Source: Candidatus Gastranaerophilales bacterium
GTDB lineage: Bacteria; Cyanobacteriota; Vampirovibrionia; Gastranaerophilales; Gastranaerophilaceae
NCBI GenBank assembly: GCA_944322885.1
Contig: CALUQH010000020.1
Location: 1 to 64,000, forward strand
Reading direction: 5' to 3'
Length of the DNA stretch: 64,000 bases
The notes under the pieces were generated by a model. It made no database searches and was not told the DNA's origin. It saw only the letters and a program-made list of their open reading frames with translations. Numbering within the stretch: the stretch's first letter is position 1; the number at the start of each line of letters is the position of its first letter. Position numbers and translations under genes: made by a program. Below are positions 44,711 to 62,911 of this stretch, one piece after another.

Positions 44711-45685
44711 ATGAATATAAAGGCTTTTACATTATCTGAAGTTTTAATTACTCTGGGGATAATTGGTGTTATTGCGGCAATTACTATGCCTGCGATTACT
44801 GCAAATGTAACCGAACGTATTAATTCTTACCGTCAGGCAAATATTGCTTATAAAGTAACACAGGCAACCGATAAAATGAAAGCTCTTGGACTATTGAAGT
44901 CATACTCCTCAACGGATGATTTTGTTGATGAACTTCAAAAGCATTTAAAAATTGCGAAAAGGTGTGATGCCGCTCATTTAACAGAGTGCTGGCCTACTGA
45001 AAAAGTAATTACATCTGAAGGAGAAGAGTTTGATGTAAAAGAAGCCAAAACCGGTAAGAATTTGAATATACAATCAAATAAAAGTAACAATGTAGGACTT
45101 ATTCTGGCTGACGGTGCATCTATCATTTTGACATATAATCAAGACAGTGACGGTATGGATATTGGGGATGCAATCGCTGCTCAGCCGAAGACTTTGCCGG
45201 TTGGATTTGGTAAAAGCAAGGATTTCGCTTATACAACATCATCTACAGCAGCTATCGATTTTGTTATGGACGTAAATGGAGCAAAGGGACCTAATAGCGA
45301 AACAATAGATAATAAGTATCATGATATACGTTCATTTAAGGCTGCACGTTTTAGTACTGCCTGTGCAGGAACCAGGATAGATGGTATAGGTTGTATAGTA
45401 AATCTTGGAACGAGTTATGATTGCGATGCATCAAACCGTTGGGACTGTGCTATGAAGGCTTGTACTGATATTGGTATGGAATTGCCTGGTACCAGTACTC
45501 TACAAAGTATATATCTTATGAAAGATGAGTATCCTGATATCCCGCAAAGTGGTCGGTTCTGGGCATCAGAGACCAGAGGTAATGGTGCCGGAAGCGGATA
45601 CTCATATTCTTTAAATTTTGATAATGGTTTGACGTACTTTGGTGACCGTATATTCAATTATGGTGCACTATGTGTTGGCGAATAA
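44711..45685 (+). CDS. Type IV pilin-like protein (prepilin N-terminus, large C-terminal domain)
   Basis: 324 residues, AAGGAG before ATG. Prepilin leader MNIKA, cleaved before F (FTLSEVLITLGIIGVIAAITMP), with the conserved Glu at mature position 5. Prepilin peptidase would cut and methylate it. The globular part has several cysteines and a C-terminal region (SGRFWASETRGNGAGSGYSYSLNFDNGLTYFG) resembling the DUF1566/Lcl-type domain often fused to pseudopilins. Likely a surface-displayed or type II-secretion-like pseudopilin. No minor pilin partners or assembly ATPase adjacent. Confidence 0.88.
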   Translation: MNIKAFTLSEVLITLGIIGVIAAITMPAITANVTERINSYRQANIAYKVTQATDKMKALGLLKSYSSTDDFVDELQKHLKIAKRCDAAHLTECWPTEKVITSEGEEFDVKEAKTGKNLNIQSNKSNNVGLILADGASIILTYNQDSDGMDIGDAIAAQPKTLPVGFGKSKDFAYTTSSTAAIDFVMDVNGAKGPNSETIDNKYHDIRSFKAARFSTACAGTRIDGIGCIVNLGTSYDCDASNRWDCAMKACTDIGMELPGTSTLQSIYLMKDEYPDIPQSGRFWASETRGNGAGSGYSYSLNFDNGLTYFGDRIFNYGALCVGE

Positions 45686-51337: not shown

Positions 51338-51913
51338 TTAATCCTGGTTAAATGCTTGTTTTACTTTCTCCAATAATTTAAATAGTCTTTTTGAAACTTC
51401 GGACTGAGAAAGGTTTAATTCTTTAGCAATTTCATTTTGTGTCATGCCTTTTTCGTATCTGAGATAGTATAATCTATAGTAATTTTTATCCGGAGTTTCT
51501 TCATCAATTTTATAAACAGCATTCACTATATTTTGTAATATATCTTTTTTTATAACAACATCTTCCGGTGTTTCCTGAATATTGATATTTTCATATCTTA
51601 TTTCGACTTTTGAGTAATCAGTAACTGTTGTAGAAGCCGGAGATTCCAGGGAAACTTCATTTGTTGACATATAACCGCTTTTTGTTCTTCTTAGCCGTCC
51701 TTCATTTTTCAAAACATTCAAAATAGAAGTTGTAGCAATTTTTCTTAAATAAGCTTCTAAAGTGTCATCAGATGTAACGGTTTTTACAATAAGCAAAGAG
51801 CGTTTGCATGTTTCATTGAAAAAGTCATCATACAAATCTTCATTATTCGTGAACTTACGGTCACTTTTTATAATTTTTTCTATTAAATCTATTTTATCCT
51901 GAGCTAATTCCAC
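51338..51913 (-). CDS. Sigma-70 family (ECF-like) RNA polymerase sigma factor
   Basis: 191 residues. Region 2 part: LYDDFFNETCKRSLLIVKTV ... AYLRKIATTSILNVLKNEGR. Region 4 part: LYYLRYEKGMTQNEIAKELNLSQSEVSKRLFKLLEKVKQAF, a clear sigma HTH. A long insert with beta-like character separates the two. There is no obvious region 3. It lies between the TonB-C transmembrane protein gene and the ATPase gene. This suggests that the transmembrane protein is its sensor or anti-sigma, but this is inferred from order only. Confidence 0.82.
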   Translation of the reverse strand: MELAQDKIDLIEKIIKSDRKFTNNEDLYDDFFNETCKRSLLIVKTVTSDDTLEAYLRKIATTSILNVLKNEGRLRRTKSGYMSTNEVSLESPASTTVTDYSKVEIRYENINIQETPEDVVIKKDILQNIVNAVYKIDEETPDKNYYRLYYLRYEKGMTQNEIAKELNLSQSEVSKRLFKLLEKVKQAFNQD

Positions 51914-51950
51914 TATAAAGTTTCCTTGTTCTTACCACATTATAGCATAA

Positions 51951-54900
51951 TTAAAAATATATGATAAGATTCAAATTGAAATCGGGGGTGCTAATCTCGT
52001 TGCTGGGCGGTTTTACGACATTTAAAGTATCTTTAACAGATTGTAACACAATGTTATCAATTTCTGTAGAACCGCTGCTGGAAATAATTTTTGCATCCTG
52101 AACATTGCCGTCCTTGCTTAATTTCAAGCTGACTTTAACCTGATTTGAATATGCATATTCGGTTGCAAGCAGTAAATCAGCAGAAAGTGAAAGTTTAATA
52201 CTTTTTCCTGCTGTTCTCAGGTAATTTTGTATTTTGGGACTGTAAGAAAGTACATCGGGTACATCCCATACAAGACGGTTAACTTCAAGATATGATTCTG
52301 TTGATATAGGTTTTTTGACTGCCGGTGTATTTTTAAGTTCTTTTACCTGTTTTTTAGTTTGTTGTACTTTTTTATCTGCGGATTTATTAATGGTTGGTGC
52401 ATTTGTTTCCAAAATATTTTCGTCATTGCTGTTTACAGGTTTATTTTTAACTGTTTCGGTTGGTGAAGGTACAGCAGGTTCAATATCTGAAGTTGTATCT
52501 GATTTTGGTTTCAGAAATACAAAAGCGGAAGCTCCCGCAAGTATAGCAACTAAGGCTGCAGTTGTGATAAGGGTCTTTTTATTGGATTTCTTTTGTTTTA
52601 AAAATGCTGCGCCCGGTATAGCCTGTTGTTCTTCGTTAACAGGGTTGAATGTATTATCCTGATCAATGCTGTCAAGTTCCGTGTCAGATGTTGGATCTGT
52701 ATCATTAAATAATACGTTCAATTTGTCATTTTCCGAATCTTCATTTTGTGTGTCTGAATTATCACCCATATTAAGAAGCTCATCAATATTGAAGTCGGAA
52801 ATATCTTCGTCATCTTGACTTGCTGTTGTTTGATATGCAGTATCATCAACAGAATTTTCCGGCATCACTGGAGTATGTGTATCCGGTTCTGTTAATGGTG
52901 ACGATACGAGTGAATCAATATCAGGGATGTCCTGTAAAGGATTGTCAGTACTGTCGCCTTGTTCTTGTAAATTTGTTTGTTCGCTGTCATTTATTTGAGG
53001 GGAAGGAACTTCTTCCTCGGTTGAATTGAGTATGCTATCTATCTGTGATAAGAGTTCATCAGAAGTAATCTCCTCAACATTCTTGCTGATAGGTGTTTCG
53101 TCGAGGCCTAAGTCGTCTATGGAGATATTGCTTATATTTTCTTCTGTAATATTTTCAAGAAGATTTTTCCCAAATGAGCCTGAGCTGCTGTCGGCCTGTA
53201 TATTTTCACCCGATGAATCATTTCCTAACGGAGTTTCCGGTAACTCTGAATTTAATGCTTCAAAATCAACATCTGAATCGTTTTCTGCTGTATTTGAGAC
53301 GGATTCGTTGCCATCATCCATAAGTTTAAGAGGTTCAACATTTAAATCTTCACTGTTATCAATTTCTTCAGGGAAATCAATTTGTAAATCCTCAATCTGT
53401 AAGTCGGAGTCATCCATACTTTCCGGCTCGTTAATATTATTTTCGGTGTTTGTAGTATTTGGAGCCTGTTCTTCTTTCCCCGGGGTTTCTGTAAGTTCTA
53501 TAACGCCAGAATCAGCGTTATCTAACTCTTCAATTCCTTCTAATGCAGATGTATCAATATCATCAAGAGAAATTGTTTCATCTTCTACGGAAGGCAAATT
53601 AGGAGTTTCATCCATAAAAGATGTATCTATATCATCAAGCGATATTGTATCAGAAGTCTGTGGCTGTGTTTCCTTATTGCCTTGATTTTCTGTTGTTGTT
53701 TCTTCCGGGAGCTCAATGTCATCAAATGATATTTTGTTATCGATTTCATTAATATAATCTATGTCATTATGAGTTCCCGAAGTATCAATGTTATCAAAAG
53801 ATATCGTTTCTTCTTCATAATTATCGGCATTAGGATACGCTATATTGTCAAGTGCTGAAGTGTCTATCTCATCAAAAGCAATAGGTTCAGGTGCTTCTGT
53901 TTCTGTATTAACAAGATCTTTTTCTACTTCAATTCCTGTATCTACGATATTTAAAGCATTTTCAATTGAATCAGCGGAAAGCTCCGTTGCTTCAACTGCA
54001 CCTGCAGCACCTTCAACAGCTGCGGTTCCTGCAATAATTCCTGCTGCACCTGCTCCAAGTTCTGCAATCCCTTCGGAAACAGTTTCATTACCGGAATTTT
54101 GAGTTTGTGTTAATGCGTCATCAGGTGATATATTTTCTATATTTTCAACCGGCTCTAGTTCAAGGTTATCAAAATTTTCTAAACTGTCGAAAGTTTCAAT
54201 ACTTTCAATACTTTCAATGCTGTTTTCCGGAGCCGTTCCATCCGAAATATTTCCGGCAGGAGTTTCAAAATTATTTTCTTCATATAAAGGTTGGTCAGAC
54301 TGTTTGTCCTCAGACATTGGGGTATTATCCTCATCAATTTCTTTTTTCAAAATTTGCGGGTCAGTCATTGCTTTGTATGATAATGTCTCAAAATTTTCAT
54401 ATTCAATAAACTTGTCTCTGAGTTGTGCACTTTTTGTCAGCTGTTTTATTAAATATTGCTTTTCATCTTCCGAAACATCATTGTCGGCCATAGCCATAAT
54501 TATTCTTTCGGAATTTTCAATATCATGTTCGGAGATTCCAGATGTAGTGTTCCCTTTAAAGTTTTCAATAAAAGTTTTAAGGTCTGAAGGAGGATTTAAC
54601 TTTTCTTTTTCAATGAAATAATAATCATGGTTCTGATTATTTTTGTTAATTAGTTTTGGTTCAAAGAAACCTAATAATTTAACATGGGAGAAATCTTCAG
54701 CAAGGTTCAAGACAACATATATATCAGGCACGAGATTGTATTTAAAATGAGATTTCGGAATAAAAATAAGATTTTCATCAAAAACAACCCTTACATCAAT
54801 ATGTATATTCGGAAGCATAATATCTGAAATATCTAATTCTTCCAGAATTTTTTTAATTGAATGTATATTGTATATGCCTGAAATGTTAATATTTTCAGAG

Positions 54901-55049
54901 GCCAGATATTTTAGGGTCAATTCGGCTCCAAGCGTGTTTACATAAGCTCTGTTTTTAACATTTCTGTCTGCAAAAGAATTTGCGGCTGCACTTGCATCAA
55001 GTTTGTCCTGATTTTCAATGTATATTATAGTATCCTGTTGAAATCCCAT
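51951..55049 (-). CDS. DUF1822-like/TonB-C transmembrane protein, putative sigma regulator
   Basis: 1,032 residues from the ATG at 55049 (GGAGAG upstream; the frame is open 14 codons earlier). Residues 1-180 resemble cyanobacterial DUF1822 proteins: RAYVNTLGAELTLKYLA, ILEELDISDIMLPNIHIDVRVVF, DIYVVLNLAEDFSHVKLLGFFEP (recalled pattern, not searched). About 600 acidic residues follow, with at least five copies of an ISxDDIDTS-type motif. A single membrane helix follows near residue 840 (KKTLITTAALVAILAGASAFVFLKP). The C-terminus (about 930-1032) is TonB-C-like: KVSLKLSKDGNVQDAKIISSSG, IVLQSVKDTLNVVKPPS. It would span the inner membrane, with the C-terminus in the periplasm. Confidence 0.75.
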   Translation of the reverse strand: MGFQQDTIIYIENQDKLDASAAANSFADRNVKNRAYVNTLGAELTLKYLASENINISGIYNIHSIKKILEELDISDIMLPNIHIDVRVVFDENLIFIPKSHFKYNLVPDIYVVLNLAEDFSHVKLLGFFEPKLINKNNQNHDYYFIEKEKLNPPSDLKTFIENFKGNTTSGISEHDIENSERIIMAMADNDVSEDEKQYLIKQLTKSAQLRDKFIEYENFETLSYKAMTDPQILKKEIDEDNTPMSEDKQSDQPLYEENNFETPAGNISDGTAPENSIESIESIETFDSLENFDNLELEPVENIENISPDDALTQTQNSGNETVSEGIAELGAGAAGIIAGTAAVEGAAGAVEATELSADSIENALNIVDTGIEVEKDLVNTETEAPEPIAFDEIDTSALDNIAYPNADNYEEETISFDNIDTSGTHNDIDYINEIDNKISFDDIELPEETTTENQGNKETQPQTSDTISLDDIDTSFMDETPNLPSVEDETISLDDIDTSALEGIEELDNADSGVIELTETPGKEEQAPNTTNTENNINEPESMDDSDLQIEDLQIDFPEEIDNSEDLNVEPLKLMDDGNESVSNTAENDSDVDFEALNSELPETPLGNDSSGENIQADSSSGSFGKNLLENITEENISNISIDDLGLDETPISKNVEEITSDELLSQIDSILNSTEEEVPSPQINDSEQTNLQEQGDSTDNPLQDIPDIDSLVSSPLTEPDTHTPVMPENSVDDTAYQTTASQDDEDISDFNIDELLNMGDNSDTQNEDSENDKLNVLFNDTDPTSDTELDSIDQDNTFNPVNEEQQAIPGAAFLKQKKSNKKTLITTAALVAILAGASAFVFLKPKSDTTSDIEPAVPSPTETVKNKPVNSNDENILETNAPTINKSADKKVQQTKKQVKELKNTPAVKKPISTESYLEVNRLVWDVPDVLSYSPKIQNYLRTAGKSIKLSLSADLLLATEYAYSNQVKVSLKLSKDGNVQDAKIISSSGSTEIDNIVLQSVKDTLNVVKPPSNEISTPDFNLNLIIYF

Positions 55050-55216
55050 GCTATTTTCTCTCCTATCTCTACTTAATAAGATGACACTCAATCAAAAAAT
55101 ATTCCAATTTTATTGTAAAGTTTTGTAACAAATATTGAAAAATAAATTTCTTTTAGTCAAAATAGATATATCAGTCGTTTTAATTATATAAAAGTGTGTT
55201 TAAAAGGAGGTTTCTC

Positions 55217-56813: not shown

Positions 56814-56845
56814 AAAAAATATAACATTAACGGAATGGAGTAATT

Positions 56846-58986
56846 ATGGGAATGATTGTAAACAAATGTAAAAAAGTCGGGGGGGGGGCACTCTAAGCAC
56901 TCCTGACGATGGTTTTAGAGATTTAAGAGCTTTCAGATTTAAGCATTTCGGATTTACATTAGCTGAAATGATGGTTGTAATGTTAATTTTGAGCATCGTT
57001 ATGGCTGCAATGGCTCCTGTGATGACGACGAGGAATAAATTAGACCAGTCGTCCCCGTGGAATTGGGCAACCAACGGTTCAGATGCTTACTATGGTCTTG
57101 GAGATGCACAGGTTGCTATGATAGGCCAGCAGGAAGCAAGGAACGATGATTCGGGTGCCCGTCTTGTAATCAATACCGGTGACGGCAAAGACCATATTTT
57201 ATTTAAAAGCGGTGAAAATGTACAGGGTCGTATAAAGTTTGAGAACAGCGGTTTGTTACTTGGCAGTTTAGCGAGCGGCAATCTTGGCAGTAATGCTACT
57301 GCCATTGGCGTTAACACTACCTCTTCAAACAGTAATACTACAGCTATAGGAACAAATGCTTCGGCAACCGGTTCCTCGGCGACCGCTATAGGTTATCAAT
57401 CAAATGCTGCAGGTACCCAATCTACTGCAATCGGTTTATCTGCAGAAAGTTCTGATTATTATGCAGTTGCGATAGGTGGTTCTTCCAAGGCAAGCAGAGA
57501 GTCCATATCAGTCGGCTTTCAATCAGAAGCATCCGGCACCCAGTCAACCGCAATTGGTCTAAGATCCCTTGCCTCTGAAAAATTTTCAAGTGCTATCGGT
57601 TATTCCTCCAGTGCAAAAGGTCCTTATTCAATAGCTTCAGGTTTTTCCTCTGTAGCATCCGGCGATACATCCATAGCTATCGGTCATTCATCAAAAGCTA
57701 CTGAACTTTATAGTACTTCAATAGGTGCTAATTCAGAATCAACGGGTCAATATAATAATGCCATCGGTTATACATCCAAGGCCATGAGTTCTTATACAAA
57801 TGCCTTAGGTTATAATGCAGTAGCATCAGGAACCGATGCTGTAGCGATTGGTACAAATTCTTCATCGTTCGGAATTCAATCAATAGCAATCGGTCGAGAA
57901 TCAGAGGCTTCTTCTAATTATGCAACAGCTTTAGGTTATAATTCATCTGCCACAGACACTCAATCAACAGCGTTAGGTTATGGAGCAATTGCTTCAGCCC
58001 CTCATTCAACGGCTTTAGGAGCAGAATCATTAGCATCCACGACCAATTCTGTAGCCTTGGGTTATAATGCAGCAGCTTCCGGCAATTATGCAATAGCCGT
58101 CGGTTATAATGCCAATGCTAAAGGTAATAATAACATAGCTATAGGTGTAGATGCCTGTTCAAATGTTCTCACAAATGGTGCAAATAAAATATGTATTGGT
58201 GCAAATTCGGGGCCTAGTGAATCATCAAGTTGGAATTCCGATACTGTTGAACGTATATTCATAGGCAGTAAATCAAAGTTTGATGGCGGTGCTGCTGTTT
58301 TAGAGGTGCATAACGATGCAACACTTGATACGTCTTTTGGTTCTGACTATGGCAGTATTAATAAAACAGCTGTTGTAATACACGGAGGTTTGGTTGTAAC
58401 CGGTCCTATTTATAATCTTGCTAAAGACAAAGGTGCGGGTAATACATGGAAAAAGTGGGGTGTCTTAGAATATGACCATGGTGGTGTAGGTATACAACAG
58501 GGTGACCAGCGTGGTTTAGGTTCTCCTTCTCGCTATCCTGATTATGTTAACGTGGCTGTAAAAAATAAGTATCCTGCTTTTATGGGAAAAAGCAATAATA
58601 ATTCTGATAGACGTTTAAAATATGTTGGTAAAGAAAGTACGTCAGGTCTTGATAAAATTCGCCAGTTAAAAATCTTTAACTATACCTTTAAAAAAGATGA
58701 GAAGAAAACTCCTCATGTCGGCGTAATCGCACAGGATTTGCAAAAAGTTTTTCCTGATGCTGTAAAAAAAGGCGTTGACGGCTTTTTAACCATACGTTTT
58801 GAGGATATGTTTTTTGCAATGATAAATGCAATTAAAGAACTTGATTCACGTATAACAGTTCTTGAAAAAGAAAATCAACAAATAAAAGCACAAAATAGCG
58901 AACTGCAAGAAATTCTGAAACAAGTTCAGAATGACAGTAAAAAACAAAATGAGCGTTTAAAATTGCTTGAATCAAAGATTAAATAA
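56846..58986 (+). CDS. Poly-G phase-variable prepilin/YadA-head/S74 surface protein (frame broken, phase OFF)
   Basis: Start ATG 56846 has GGAG at five bases. Reading from it crosses ten G (56879-56888) and hits a stop at 56894-56896. Adding one G (11) or removing two (8) joins it to the downstream frame and gives 713 residues. The joined protein has a prepilin leader ending FKHFG, cut before FTLAEMMVVMLILSIVMAAMAP, with Glu5. Next come about 20 YadA-head-like repeats (ATAIGYQSNAAGTQSTAIGL). A C-terminal S74-type intramolecular chaperone (SDRRLKYVGKESTSGLDKIRQL ... VGVIAQDLQKVFPDAV) and a coiled coil end it. Likely a pilin-anchored adhesin. Drawn here as the whole locus. Confidence 0.8.
56879..56888. 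repeat. Homopolymeric G10 tract (phase-variation switch)
   Basis: Ten consecutive G directly after AAAGTC, inside the coding start of the surface-protein gene. Slippage by one base changes the frame. In this assembly the frame is broken. Confidence 0.9.
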
Positions 58987-59073: not shown

Positions 59074-59317
59074 TTTGCCGTCCGTCCAAATTTTAACCAG
59101 TAATGACAAAAAATACCTTCCCTTATTAGAGAAGGTAAGGATGGGTTTCAATCAACACCCACACCTTCCACCTCCCTATTAGAGAGGAAAATCAAATAAA
59201 TTTGATTTTTGAAAAATATCCATTAAATGATTGATGTGCGGTGTTAGTAAATAGTCTATTGTATTTATGGGGAAAGCTCATTATTACAGACTTGAATAAG
59301 GGATAGCAGATTAAAAT
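59074..59317. repeat. Gene-free intergenic region with dispersed palindromes
   Basis: No credible ORF. Holds an ACCTTC/GAAGGT palindrome at 59115-59136 and a CCTCCC...GAGAGG one at about 59170-59187, of the same style as those at 15841, 47703 and 61591. The last 100 bases are the AT-rich leader of the flagellar-type operon. Confidence 0.6.
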
Positions 59318-60514
59318 ATGATTAATCAAAAAATCAACTCAATAGATTATAAAGAATTGTATGCGCAGTACAATTGGTTCGCCAAGAATTTTCCGCCTGC
59401 CGTTCAGTCTGCCTGTGATGAATTTTTTGACCCCGGATTTCAATTTATACTGGCAGGAATAAGTAAAAATATTAATACTTTGATGGATAAGGATGCTTAT
59501 TTTGTTACAAAAATCCGTATAGATAAGCTTCATGATATGTTTTTCCGCACTTCCGAAAAAGCTGTCGGGATTATTCTGGATAAAATTTTAGGGAAACCGA
59601 ATTCGAGGTTTAATCTTAATAAATTAACTGATTTGGAAGCTAAAATTATAACAGCATTTAATGATTATATGTTTAATATGGTTTCAAAATTTCTTTCCCC
59701 TGCCCCGCCGACATTGAAAAGAACAAATTTTGATGTTGTGCATTTAACTTTTTTGTTAAAGGATATTGAGAAAAATGAAGTTGCAAAGTTTGTAATAACT
59801 TTACCCGAAGAGCTTTTAAACCCCGAAATTGTGGTTTCCAAAAATGATAAATTTGATTACGGAGCTTTCTCAACGAGCGTAATTGATATTGCAGTAAAAA
59901 TAGGAAGTACAAAGTTTAAACTTATAGATGTGAAAAATATTGAAGTTGATGACATTGTTGTTTTTGATAACAGTAATATAAACCACATGGTTATGAAGTT
60001 TAATGACTATGAAAAAGATATAAATTTGAACCCGAATTTGGGACTTGTTATTCCGGTGGAAAACGAAGAAGGAGAAGATAATATGGCAGGAGAGAATACT
60101 AATCTCTGGGACAGTATTGAGGTTGAGATGGGTGCTCAATTTGATACGGTAAAAATTACTCTCGGCGAGTTAAAAAAGATAGAGGAAGGATTGGTTGTTG
60201 ATTTGACCTCTATATATGATAACAAGGTAACTTTGAGCGTTGAAGATAAACCTATTGCACGCGGAGAACTGGTTATAGTTAATGACAGATACGGTGTTAA
60301 GATTGAAGAAGTTATCGCTCAAATGCCTGCTCAGGCTCAGACAGATGAATCTGTCCCGCAAGGCGGTTTTGAGGATGAATTTAATAATTCTTTTGACGAA
60401 ACTTCTCCAAATCCGTCTGAAGCACCTGCTCAGGAACCGCAAAATGCTAAACCTGCAGATGAAGAAGATGAATTTGACTACAGTGACTTTGAATTAGAAG
60501 ACGAGGATATATAA
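59318..60514 (+). CDS. FliM/FliN/SctQ-like C-ring protein with SpoA domains
   Basis: 398 residues. The N-terminal 140 residues are helical. Two SpoA (surface presentation of antigens) domains follow: a diverged one at about 175-250 (VIDIAVKIGSTKFKLIDVKNIEVDDIVVFD) and a typical one at about 270-335 (VEMGAQFDTVKITLGELKKIEEGLVVDL ... DNKVTLSVEDKPIARGELVIVNDRYGVKI). The tail is very acidic (DEEDEFDYSDFELEDEDI). This resembles FliY/FliN or SctQ of flagellar and type III systems. First gene of the export operon. Confidence 0.82.
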   Translation: MINQKINSIDYKELYAQYNWFAKNFPPAVQSACDEFFDPGFQFILAGISKNINTLMDKDAYFVTKIRIDKLHDMFFRTSEKAVGIILDKILGKPNSRFNLNKLTDLEAKIITAFNDYMFNMVSKFLSPAPPTLKRTNFDVVHLTFLLKDIEKNEVAKFVITLPEELLNPEIVVSKNDKFDYGAFSTSVIDIAVKIGSTKFKLIDVKNIEVDDIVVFDNSNINHMVMKFNDYEKDINLNPNLGLVIPVENEEGEDNMAGENTNLWDSIEVEMGAQFDTVKITLGELKKIEEGLVVDLTSIYDNKVTLSVEDKPIARGELVIVNDRYGVKIEEVIAQMPAQAQTDESVPQGGFEDEFNNSFDETSPNPSEAPAQEPQNAKPADEEDEFDYSDFELEDEDI

Positions 60515-60536
60515 AATACTTTGAAAGGCGGTACAA

Positions 60537-60917
60537 ATGGCTGGTAGTGCTTACTTATTAAATTTTATAGTTTATACGGCGGCAATGGTCGGAATAATTT
60601 TTCTGGCTTTGTTTGTGTATAAAAAATTCTCTTATTCTACCGTGTCAAAGTCAAAATTTCTTGATATAGAAGATTGTATAGGGCTTGGACCGCGTAAAAA
60701 TCTTTATGTTGTTCGTGCCGGTAAAGAGAGGTTTCTTGTAGCCTCTGACGTTGATAAAACTTCGCTTATTTCAAAGCTTGATATAAACGGAGAAACTTCC
60801 GAAAAAGCTGTTCTGACAGAAAATACTAAAAGTGTGGACGATTTGCCTTCTATTGTGAATATAAATAAGGCTAATCAACCGAAAAAAGTCTTTAAAAACC
60901 TGATAAATAAACTATAA
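60537..60917 (+). CDS. fliO: FliO-like flagellar export protein
   Basis: 126 residues with AAAGGCGG before ATG. One N-terminal membrane segment (FIVYTAAMVGIIFLALFVYKKF), then a small cytoplasmic domain with GLGPRKNLYVVRAGKERFLVASD, the typical FliO pattern. FliO assists FliP assembly. Gap to fliP is 15 bases. Confidence 0.82.
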   Translation: MAGSAYLLNFIVYTAAMVGIIFLALFVYKKFSYSTVSKSKFLDIEDCIGLGPRKNLYVVRAGKERFLVASDVDKTSLISKLDINGETSEKAVLTENTKSVDDLPSIVNINKANQPKKVFKNLINKL

Positions 60918-60932
60918 AAAAAGGAAACTATA

Positions 60933-61574
60933 ATGGATACAATTATAAAGGATATGAATCCTGTATTGCAAATGTTAATATTGATGACGGTATTTTCTTT
61001 GCTGCCGTTAGTTTTTTGCTGTATGACAAGCTTTTTACGTTTTGTCATAGTGTTTTCAATGCTTAAGACAGCATTAGGTACACAGCAGGTTCCGCCTTCC
61101 ATCGTAATTATCGGACTCGCAATGATTTTGACATTTTATACAATGGGTTCGACTTTTCAAAAAATGTATGAGCTCGGCTCTGTGCCGTATCATAAAAATC
61201 AGAATGTCATAGAGGCGATTAACGAGGGTTCAAAACCTTTGAAAGAGTTTATGATGAAGCAGACAAGGGAAAGCGATCTGGCATTTTTTATCGAAATGTC
61301 AAAGGGGACTGCGCCTAAAAGTCCTGATGAAATTACCGTATGGCAGGTTGCTCCGGCATTTATCATAAGCGAATTGAAAACATCTTTTGAAATCGGCTTT
61401 ATTATATTTGTACCATTTATAGTTTTAGACCTTGTTGTTGCAAATATATTGCTGGCATTAGGTATGTTCATGCTGTCGCCTACGATTATATCATTACCGT
61501 TTAAGCTTTTGATATTTATTGCGGTTGACGGCTGGGCGCTCATAGTACAGGGGCTTGTAACAAGCTATAATTAA
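60933..61574 (+). CDS. fliP: Flagellar/type III export pore protein FliP
   Basis: 213 residues with AAAGGAAA before ATG. Four hydrophobic segments with family signatures LVFCCMTSFLRFVIVFSMLKTALGTQQVPP, FMMKQTRESDLAFF, APAFIISELKTSFEIGFIIFVPF and GMFMLSPTIISLPFKLLIFI. It lacks the long N-terminal signal peptide of some FliP proteins. FliP forms the inner-membrane export gate with FliQ and FliR. Confidence 0.95.
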   Translation: MDTIIKDMNPVLQMLILMTVFSLLPLVFCCMTSFLRFVIVFSMLKTALGTQQVPPSIVIIGLAMILTFYTMGSTFQKMYELGSVPYHKNQNVIEAINEGSKPLKEFMMKQTRESDLAFFIEMSKGTAPKSPDEITVWQVAPAFIISELKTSFEIGFIIFVPFIVLDLVVANILLALGMFMLSPTIISLPFKLLIFIAVDGWALIVQGLVTSYN

Positions 61575-61590
61575 ATAACCGTCTCCCTGA

Positions 61591-61610
61591 CCCTCTCCGC
61601 AGGAGAGGGG
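61591..61610. repeat. Dispersed palindrome between fliP and fliQ
   Basis: CCCTCTCC-gc-AGGAGAGGGG flanked by further complementary bases (TCTCCCT ... GGGGAGA). Inside an operon, so more likely a repeat element than a terminator. Confidence 0.6.
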
Positions 61611-61638
61611 AGAAATATAAACATGAGGACAATAAAAA

Positions 61639-62127
61639 ATGGAAGTTTTAGTTGAATATTTAGCAAAAGGTTTTTTATTAATGCTTGCGATATCTATGCC
61701 ATGCGTTCTTGTTGCTGCCGGTATCGGTCTTGTTGTGGGTATTTTACAGGCTGTTACGCAGGTTCAGGAGCAGACTATTGCTGCGGCACCTAAAATTCTC
61801 GGGGTTTTTCTGGTTATTATTATCGGCGGAATCGGTTTTATTAATATGCTCAGAGGTTTTGTAACAGACGGTTTTGCAATGGCATTTAATCTTGTGTCTA
61901 AAAATGATTCTTATGTTTTGCCTGCTGATTATTATAAATACACTTCTCCTTTTGAACATGAAATGAACGATAAATTTAAAAATCAGCCTTCAATAAATGA
62001 GTTAATGAAAAATCCGGGTAAGGTTCCGTATATTGATAATCAGCAGAAAATGAAATATTTGCCGAGTCCGCAGACTCCTATGCCAAAACCTGACTTTGTA
62101 GAAACAAATACAATTCTGGGGAGATAA
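61639..62127 (+). CDS. fliQ: FliQ-type export protein with unusual C-terminal extension
   Basis: 162 residues. Residues 1-90 match FliQ (two membrane segments: FLLMLAISMPCVLVAAGIGLVVGIL and PKILGVFLVIIIGGIGFINMLRGFV, with QAVTQVQEQTI between). FliQ is normally about 89 residues. Here about 72 extra residues follow, polar and Pro-rich (YVLPADYYKYTSPFEHEMND ... PSPQTPMPKPDF), likely cytoplasmic or periplasmic and non-membrane. Confidence 0.9.
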   Translation: MEVLVEYLAKGFLLMLAISMPCVLVAAGIGLVVGILQAVTQVQEQTIAAAPKILGVFLVIIIGGIGFINMLRGFVTDGFAMAFNLVSKNDSYVLPADYYKYTSPFEHEMNDKFKNQPSINELMKNPGKVPYIDNQQKMKYLPSPQTPMPKPDFVETNTILGR

Positions 62128-62131
62128 TTAA

Positions 62132-62911
62132 TTGGAAGAACTTATAACCGAATTAATGAAAATGTTTCCGATGCTGAATGCTTATCTGGCGGCAGGTATT
62201 TTTATATTTGCAAGACTTTTGGGCTTTTTCAGGATGGCTCCGGTGTTTAACAGGAAGGAAATCCCCGGAATGGTAAAAATTTCTCTGGCATTGCTTCTTT
62301 CTATTGTATTAACTTGTGTTGTAAAACCTGACGTAACTATTATTAAGGAATCTTTTGTTCTTTCAATATTTTTAAACATGGTTGTCGGAGCAATGCTCGG
62401 ATATGTTGCACAGCTGATACTTCTTGCAATAGACGCAGGCGGTGATATGGTGAATATGCAGATGGGGTTGTCATCAGCTATGGTTTTGGATCCCACAACT
62501 TCCTCTCAGGTTTCTATTGTCGGTAAATGTTTTTCATTTCTCGGGCTTTTAATTTTTATTCAGCTCGGGGGTGTTTATTGGCTTTTAAACGCTTTTATGA
62601 GAAGTTTTGAAATATTTCCTCTGGATGCAACAATCGTCCCTCTGGCAAAGCTTGTAAATCTGGATTATGTTGTAGATTTGTCATCAAATGTTCTTTATAT
62701 GGGCTTGCAGATAGCATCTCCTATTCTTCTTGCAACGCTCGGACAGGATATAATTCTCGGGGTAATTTCAAAAACGGCTCCTCAGGTTAACGTTTTTCAG
62801 TTAAGCTTTCTTTTCAAACCTGTATTGGGGGCTGCAATAATGGTATGGATTTTGCCAATGCTTGTGAATATTATTTCCGATTACTTTTTATCGTTTGCGA
62901 ATATAATTTAG
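62132..62911 (+). CDS. fliR: FliR-type export protein, TTG start
   Basis: 259 residues from TTG 62132, 4 bases after fliQ, preceded by GGGGAG. About six membrane segments (AGIFIFARLLGFFRMAPVF, ISLALLLSIVLTCVV, VFSFLGLLIFIQLGG...). Contains the FliR signature region VNMQMGLSSAMVLDPTTSSQVSIVG. It completes FliPQR. No flhB, flhA or fliF is in the window, so whether this serves flagella or another export system is open. Confidence 0.93.
   Translation: MEELITELMKMFPMLNAYLAAGIFIFARLLGFFRMAPVFNRKEIPGMVKISLALLLSIVLTCVVKPDVTIIKESFVLSIFLNMVVGAMLGYVAQLILLAIDAGGDMVNMQMGLSSAMVLDPTTSSQVSIVGKCFSFLGLLIFIQLGGVYWLLNAFMRSFEIFPLDATIVPLAKLVNLDYVVDLSSNVLYMGLQIASPILLATLGQDIILGVISKTAPQVNVFQLSFLFKPVLGAAIMVWILPMLVNIISDYFLSFANII

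Follow-up and report, generated by a model that had tools for sequence, protein, structure and literature searches.

A ten-guanine tract in the leaders of prepilin genes from gut Gastranaerophilales points to a default-off, phase-variable pilin repertoire

Dozens of prepilin genes in a genus of gut Gastranaerophilales carry a run of ten G or C near their start, and we consider it rather probable that they form a default-off, phase-variable repertoire governed by a length switch in the cleaved leader. The starting point was a locus within a stretch of 64,000 nucleotides (the window), which is contig 20 of a genome of 1.86 Mb with a completeness of 97.7%. The genome would contain about 60 switchable prepilin genes, and this locus would be among them. 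With ten bases in the run the gene would be off and translation would stop soon after the run, and one additional base (11) or two fewer (8) would bring the intact downstream open reading frame into frame. The in-frame product would be exported as a prepilin, and prepilin peptidase would then cut off the leader together with its poly-Gly or poly-Pro stretch, such that the switch would reside in the portion to be discarded and the mature protein would be left untouched and independent of the tract. In the window gene, the predicted mature part combines a pilin stem with a trimeric YadA-like head, and the C-terminal S74 chaperone would bring about its folding. Since ten is the usual length, nearly all tract-bearing pilins should be off by default with only a few on per lineage, and this would give rise to a combinatorial surface repertoire. 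Length change by slippage within populations, export, cleavage, trimer formation and adhesive function are parts of this picture that we infer.

The tract and the fusion protein at the window locus

The features of the locus are collected in Table 1. A start codon with a ribosome-binding site leads into ten G that begin 33 nt past the ATG and then to a stop, just as the first-pass annotation had described; a second in-frame ATG of the short frame is located at 56852. The long frame runs uninterrupted from 56872 to 58983 (stop at 58984-58986) and is closed upstream by a TAA at 56869-56871. It contains no ATG, GTG or TTG before 56968, a position that already lies within the pilin helix and past the cleavage site. 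We thus agree with the earlier statement that the FTLAE frame lacks a start, and the absence of a usable one speaks for the phase-variable reading. The restoration of the frame by one extra G or two fewer was likewise reproduced: the open reading frame from ATG 56846 comprises 713 amino acids with 11 G and 710 with 8 G. The locus therefore has a frame-setting repeat tract in its 5' coding region, one of the marks by which contingency loci are recognized. Runs of ten G were found in none of 100 dinucleotide shuffles of the window, and no other run of G or C longer than five is present in its 64 kb. The switch had originally been placed between the leader and the adhesin body. This has to be corrected, as the tract belongs to the N-terminal leader itself and precedes the predicted cleavage site (GGA 56950-56952/TTT 56953) by 64 nt, and the residues encoded by it would consequently be lost on maturation. 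Genes of the FliM/N-C-domain, FliO, FliP, FliQ and FliR type (flagellar/type III export) follow directly 3' and share the strand of the switch gene (59318-62911, +), and a sigma-70 region-4-like gene is found beside a gene for a long acidic protein that carries a TonB domain at its C-terminus, at 51338-55091 (-).

Table 1. Features of the window locus and loci used for comparison (positions in the window unless a locus handle is given)
Feature	Position	Strand	Remarks
Shine-Dalgarno-like GGAG	56837..56840	+	5 nt ahead of ATG; from sequence
Start codon ATG	56846..56848	+	short frame MGMIVNKCKKV-Gly
Copy of the genus-wide DNA element	56876..56898	+	GTC-G10-CACTCTAAGC in the window; consensus (T/G)TC-G10-CA(A/C)TTCTNAGC
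G10 tract	56879..56888	+	10, off; 11 or 8, in frame
TAA ending the short frame at tract length ten	56894..56896	+	
Prepilin-YadA-S74 open frame	56872..58986	+	704 codons and stop; lacks a start codon before 56968
Prepilin methylation/cleavage motif (N_methyl)	56941..57012	+	predicted cut Gly 56950-56952/Phe 56953, G/FTLAE
YadA-head repeats, AIGxxxxAxG type	57285..58215 (limits approximate)	+	translation; PF05658, 3.8e-52, 11 stretches
Peptidase_S74 intramolecular chaperone	58603..58767	+	starts at SDRRLK
C-terminal helical tail, probably coiled-coil	58768..58983 (limits approximate)	+	predicted; weak ZapB/YabA-like matches below cut-off
Tract-free prepilin gene start	44712..44785	+	in-frame ordinary leader MNIKAFTLSEV; comparison, outside the switch
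Non-pilin G10 loci	L016, L024, L027:3020, L039, L001, L153/L154		

Prepilin leader, YadA-head-like repeats and S74 chaperone, the three parts recognized at first sight, all exceed the curated Pfam cut-offs (N_methyl 2.9e-7, YadA_head 3.8e-52 in 11 stretches, Peptidase_S74 3.9e-16). With its G/FTLAE leader motif followed by a hydrophobic helix, the protein is of the type IV prepilin type. The S74 domain reaches 59.5 bits against a cut-off of 22 and begins with Ser-x4-Lys (SDRRLK). A Ser-Lys spacing of this kind is typical of self-cleaving members (S74/MYRF), and the S74 chaperone of the window protein may therefore cleave itself. No Pfam match to a C-terminal YadA beta-barrel anchor was obtained, the C-terminus consisting of the S74 domain and the helical tail, and for this reason the protein is not classed as a trimeric autotransporter. 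The three-part fusion had been thought unusual. The search of relatives instead revealed that the fusion occurs throughout the genus as a family, most species having several members, of which some carry the switch and others do not. Among the tract-bearing copies, L066, L073, L074 and L081 have G10 and are off, L072 has G11 and is on, and L091 is on with G10; the remaining copies have short in-frame leaders such as MLKIKHGFTLAEMM.

Distribution of the element and its frame offset

The window genome contains 70 tracts of at least eight G, 58 of them with exactly ten, and a C precedes 65 of the 70, mostly in the context (T/G)TC-G10-CA(A/C)TTCTNAGC. A tract is present within 450 nt upstream of 60 of the 90 prepilin-type starts, in support of a switchable repertoire; no tract was seen at the remaining starts. 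This DNA element with G10 is common to about 30 sister species, each represented by one genome, mostly a metagenome assembly. Many genomes hold 50-120 tracts, which lie mostly in pilin leaders. Read in coding sense, G and C tracts are roughly equal in number in the window genome, and the G:C ratio amounts to 46:16 and 45:16 in the sister species G014 and G018, respectively. A motif scan of 84,980 species yielded matches only in Gastranaerophilales/Melainabacteria, in assemblies labeled 'uncultured bacterium' and in records of Fusobacterium sp. CAG:439 (L099 and L127; FR900478.1 and FR900479.1), and the name on the latter looks wrong. As to the order itself, the genus of the window is rich in the element, other genera of the family have few copies (0-15), and 22 genomes of the order from outside the family have none. 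A phage origin was rejected, as IMG/VR contained no match to the motif.

Where orthologues lack a tract, their leaders are plain and in frame. An example is the pilin gene just 3' of mutS (G000:C31:60592, i.e. L053; L188, L197, L202), whose position next to mutS is conserved in several species irrespective of the tract. It carries C10 in four species, an off state in all cases with a readable frame, and in four others its leader is plain and in frame. A dispersed intergenic repeat with a GATGGGTTTCAATCA core is present at 59100-59190 of the window and also in the pilin leaders L009, L021, L031, L033, L038, L041, L054 and L056. These approximately eight switchable leaders seem to have taken it up in frame between tract and cleavage site, and the leaders that contain it reach up to about 100 amino acids.

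The many intact but silent pilin reading frames in one genome, with a G-rich element at their start, could also be taken for donors that recombine into an expressed locus, as do the silent cassettes of Neisseria. We consider this very improbable, because each pilin has its own start codon and ribosome-binding site, no shared 3' or upstream repeats occur among 58 pilins, and orthologues come into frame by a one-base change in place. Extended shared sequence flanking the cassettes, as in the Neisseria type, was not found.

In order to describe the frame, we pooled pilins from the window genome, the two sister species and loci from others, with start codons assigned by rule. At a tract length of ten, 170 of 178 pilins are one base short, seven are in frame and a single one is out the other way, counts that include related genes and species and hence do not represent independent events. 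In the same pool, tracts of 11 are in frame in nine of 13 cases and tracts of eight in both of two, and all seven tracts of nine are off. The distance from start to tract is mostly 19-38 nt and falls into all three modulo-3 classes, indicating that compensating changes in the leader, and not descent alone, maintain the offset. When the element resides in non-pilin genes, it is in frame at ten, a further point in favor of a pilin switch. These carriers comprise two glycosyltransferases, an F420-hydrogenase/transferase-like and a glycogen-synthase-like protein, L001 and an AAA ATPase, the names being derived from sequence and not from family searches. In two orthologues of the AAA ATPase, the element has decayed by substitutions with its length kept (GGGGGATGGG and GGGAGGTAAG). 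Mobile insertion leaving clean empty sites was rejected, since the AAA-ATPase orthologues show either decay in place or unrelated sequence of similar length and no clean insertion.

A constant slippery sequence combined with a constant offset, as observed here at a length of ten, is the pattern by which programmed frameshifting is recognized. The G10 or C10 allele could accordingly be the normal expressed form and be read by means of a ribosomal -1 shift or of an RNA polymerase that adds a base, with the DNA length remaining constant. Such recoding explains the single offset better than length switching does: with one exception against the 170, the offset could be corrected by a -1 shift or one added base. 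The nearly fixed length and the purifying selection on proteins from G10 genes (see below) are in accord with it as well. On the other hand, a run of seven bases would serve a ribosomal shift and none was seen, orthologues with 11 bases are simply in frame, and non-pilin genes carry the element in frame. Moreover, recoding is silent on the replication-strand polarity, on the flanks common to both gene orientations and on the lack of runs of seven and eight bases that are described below. All in all, we regard it as unlikely.

Tract length, strand polarity and change between species

When the motif was searched with the length left free, 43 of 47 copies had exactly ten bases. In the sampled stretches of G014, the tract strand contains three runs of six G, none of seven or eight, two of nine, 59 of ten and one each of 11 and 12. 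Part of this sharp mode may reflect the commonest length in each population, as the assemblies are mostly population consensus. Even so, known contingency loci vary more in length, which counts against a phase-variable repertoire, and the spread lengths and near-random frames of Campylobacter are not seen. They are seen in another member of the same genus, G025, in which the tracts are mostly 11-16 G long (CATC-G11..16-ATTTTCTCCTAGCAAGG before prepilins, L263-L292), lie in a different context and exhibit broad lengths, mixed frames and strand switches like ordinary contingency loci. With lengths of nine and 11 about equally rare, slippage alone does not predict the 170:1 bias of the offset.

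Of 176 pairs of neighboring tracts from four genomes, 171 have both members on one strand; the strand of the genes at the tract loci of the window genome switches in 16 of 38 instances. In G014, the tract strand flips at two points only, both of them flips of the GC skew, and G is on the leading strand. Tract strand thus follows the leading strand of replication independently of gene strand. A mere by-product of GC skew was rejected as the cause, for runs of five bases are distributed 34:13 in favor of the tract strand as compared to 59:0 for runs of ten. More than 90% of the tracts are followed by CA or CG and about 70% show the pattern [CT]T-AGC, in both cases in either gene orientation, and coding can therefore not explain these flanks. 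Slippage as such gives no account of the polarity or of the shared flanks either, and both have to be counted against the phase-variable reading.

These features would all be accounted for if replication itself set the length. A replication-coupled process might create or reset the element, a strand-specific factor or nucleic-acid template at the fork holding it at ten, and the offset in pilins would then be a secondary use. The leading-strand G of neighboring tracts, identical flanks in both orientations, a length of ten without sevens or eights and the occurrence in unrelated genes all fit such a process. However, neither an enzyme nor a template was identified, and clean insertions at orthologous sites were not found, the AAA-ATPase orthologues decaying by substitution in place. 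Selection for slippage behavior in one orientation, a milder form of the same idea, could yield the polarity just as well, and we judge the process in its strict form to be quite improbable. Somewhat easier to accept, yet tentative, is a combination of both views: a lineage-specific G10 element, whose ten bases are put in place or maintained by a fork-associated process with G always on the leading strand, could keep dozens of prepilins one base out of frame in a default-off state and thereby bring about a length-regulated, strand-locked phase variation.

Related genomes speak for the phase-variable reading. A comparison of G014 with G018 gave 21 tract loci as reciprocal best matches. The lengths are 10/10 at 15 loci, 10/11 at three, 10/9 at two and 10/13 at one, and at all three 10/11 loci off becomes on. 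Length thus differs at one and the same locus between related genomes with an effect on the on/off state, as is characteristic of contingency loci. Pairs that are off in both species have a pooled dN/dS of about 0.27, i.e. they are under purifying selection, which indicates that the pilin proteins are made at some time and matter. Orthologous length changes together with dN/dS support switching by tract length and argue against error and pseudogenes; the latter were rejected in view of intact reading frames and a dN/dS well below 1. Miscounted bases in the runs or dead genes are hardly credible for further reasons. It is true that homopolymers are hard to count, as noted for Bifidobacterium (PMC9187656), and that most of the genomes are metagenome assemblies. 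Nevertheless, length, place and offset recur in many independent assemblies, runs of 11-16 G were assembled for G025 and the reading frames are intact. Sequencing error, formerly named as the main alternative, can consequently no longer be given that rank. Loss of mismatch repair as a cause of unstable tracts was also rejected: MutS1 matches were found in 33 of 33 genomes, in 32 of them over the cut-off. The presence of MutS at the same time speaks against a slipping repertoire. Of the poly-G length switch as initially proposed, changes of length and frame between orthologues bear out the switch, but ordinary poly-G slippage gives no account of the near-fixed ten, the single-sense offset and the replication-strand polarity.

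Comparison with known systems

In the literature searched, nothing was found on phase variation in Gastranaerophilales or Melainabacteria. To judge from this literature, the gut Gastranaerophilales would thereby gain their first described contingency system, which would also be a large one. Automatic gene calling on these genomes will probably overlook or shorten the majority of the tract-bearing pilins. The fixed length, the single offset and the polarity make control of bacterial slippage by orientation and flanks directly testable, whereas work on Campylobacter found none for flanks.

Among adhesins, YadA-type trimeric proteins and phage S74 tail spikes resemble the window protein in their YadA_head repeats and in an S74 domain with SDxRLK. 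They differ in that here a prepilin signal replaces the Sec signal, no YadA anchor was detected and the protein is cellular and not from phage. The pilE/pilS system of Neisseria with its upstream G-quadruplex likewise has a large number of silent pilin genes and a G-rich signal in the DNA; in the Gastranaerophilales, in contrast, neither shared cassette flanks nor a single expression locus are present, and it is the tract length that changes.

Nearest in kind are the contingency loci of Campylobacter and the pilus switch of Bifidobacterium breve. The poly-G loci of Campylobacter (PhasomeIt) are alike in their 5' homopolymeric G, surface-related genes, AT-rich genome and length-set frame. In that organism, 52% of the tracts have nine and 30% ten G, the median is 20 tracts, flanks do not matter and about 95% of the tracts within genes read G on the coding strand (PMC6321876; PMC4965091). 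Here, in contrast, about 90% have exactly ten, up to about 120 tracts occur per genome and a quarter to half are poly-C in coding sense; strand tracks replication, flanks are shared and the tract lies in a cleaved leader. Bifidobacterium breve is likewise a gut commensal with pilin genes controlled by G tracts, which are off at the annotated G10 or G11 and on after replication slippage (PMC9187656). Its two sortase-pilus clusters, however, have the tract between Sec signal and LPXTG body (PMC9187656), whereas the Gastranaerophilales system comprises dozens of type IV prepilins and does not involve sortase chemistry.
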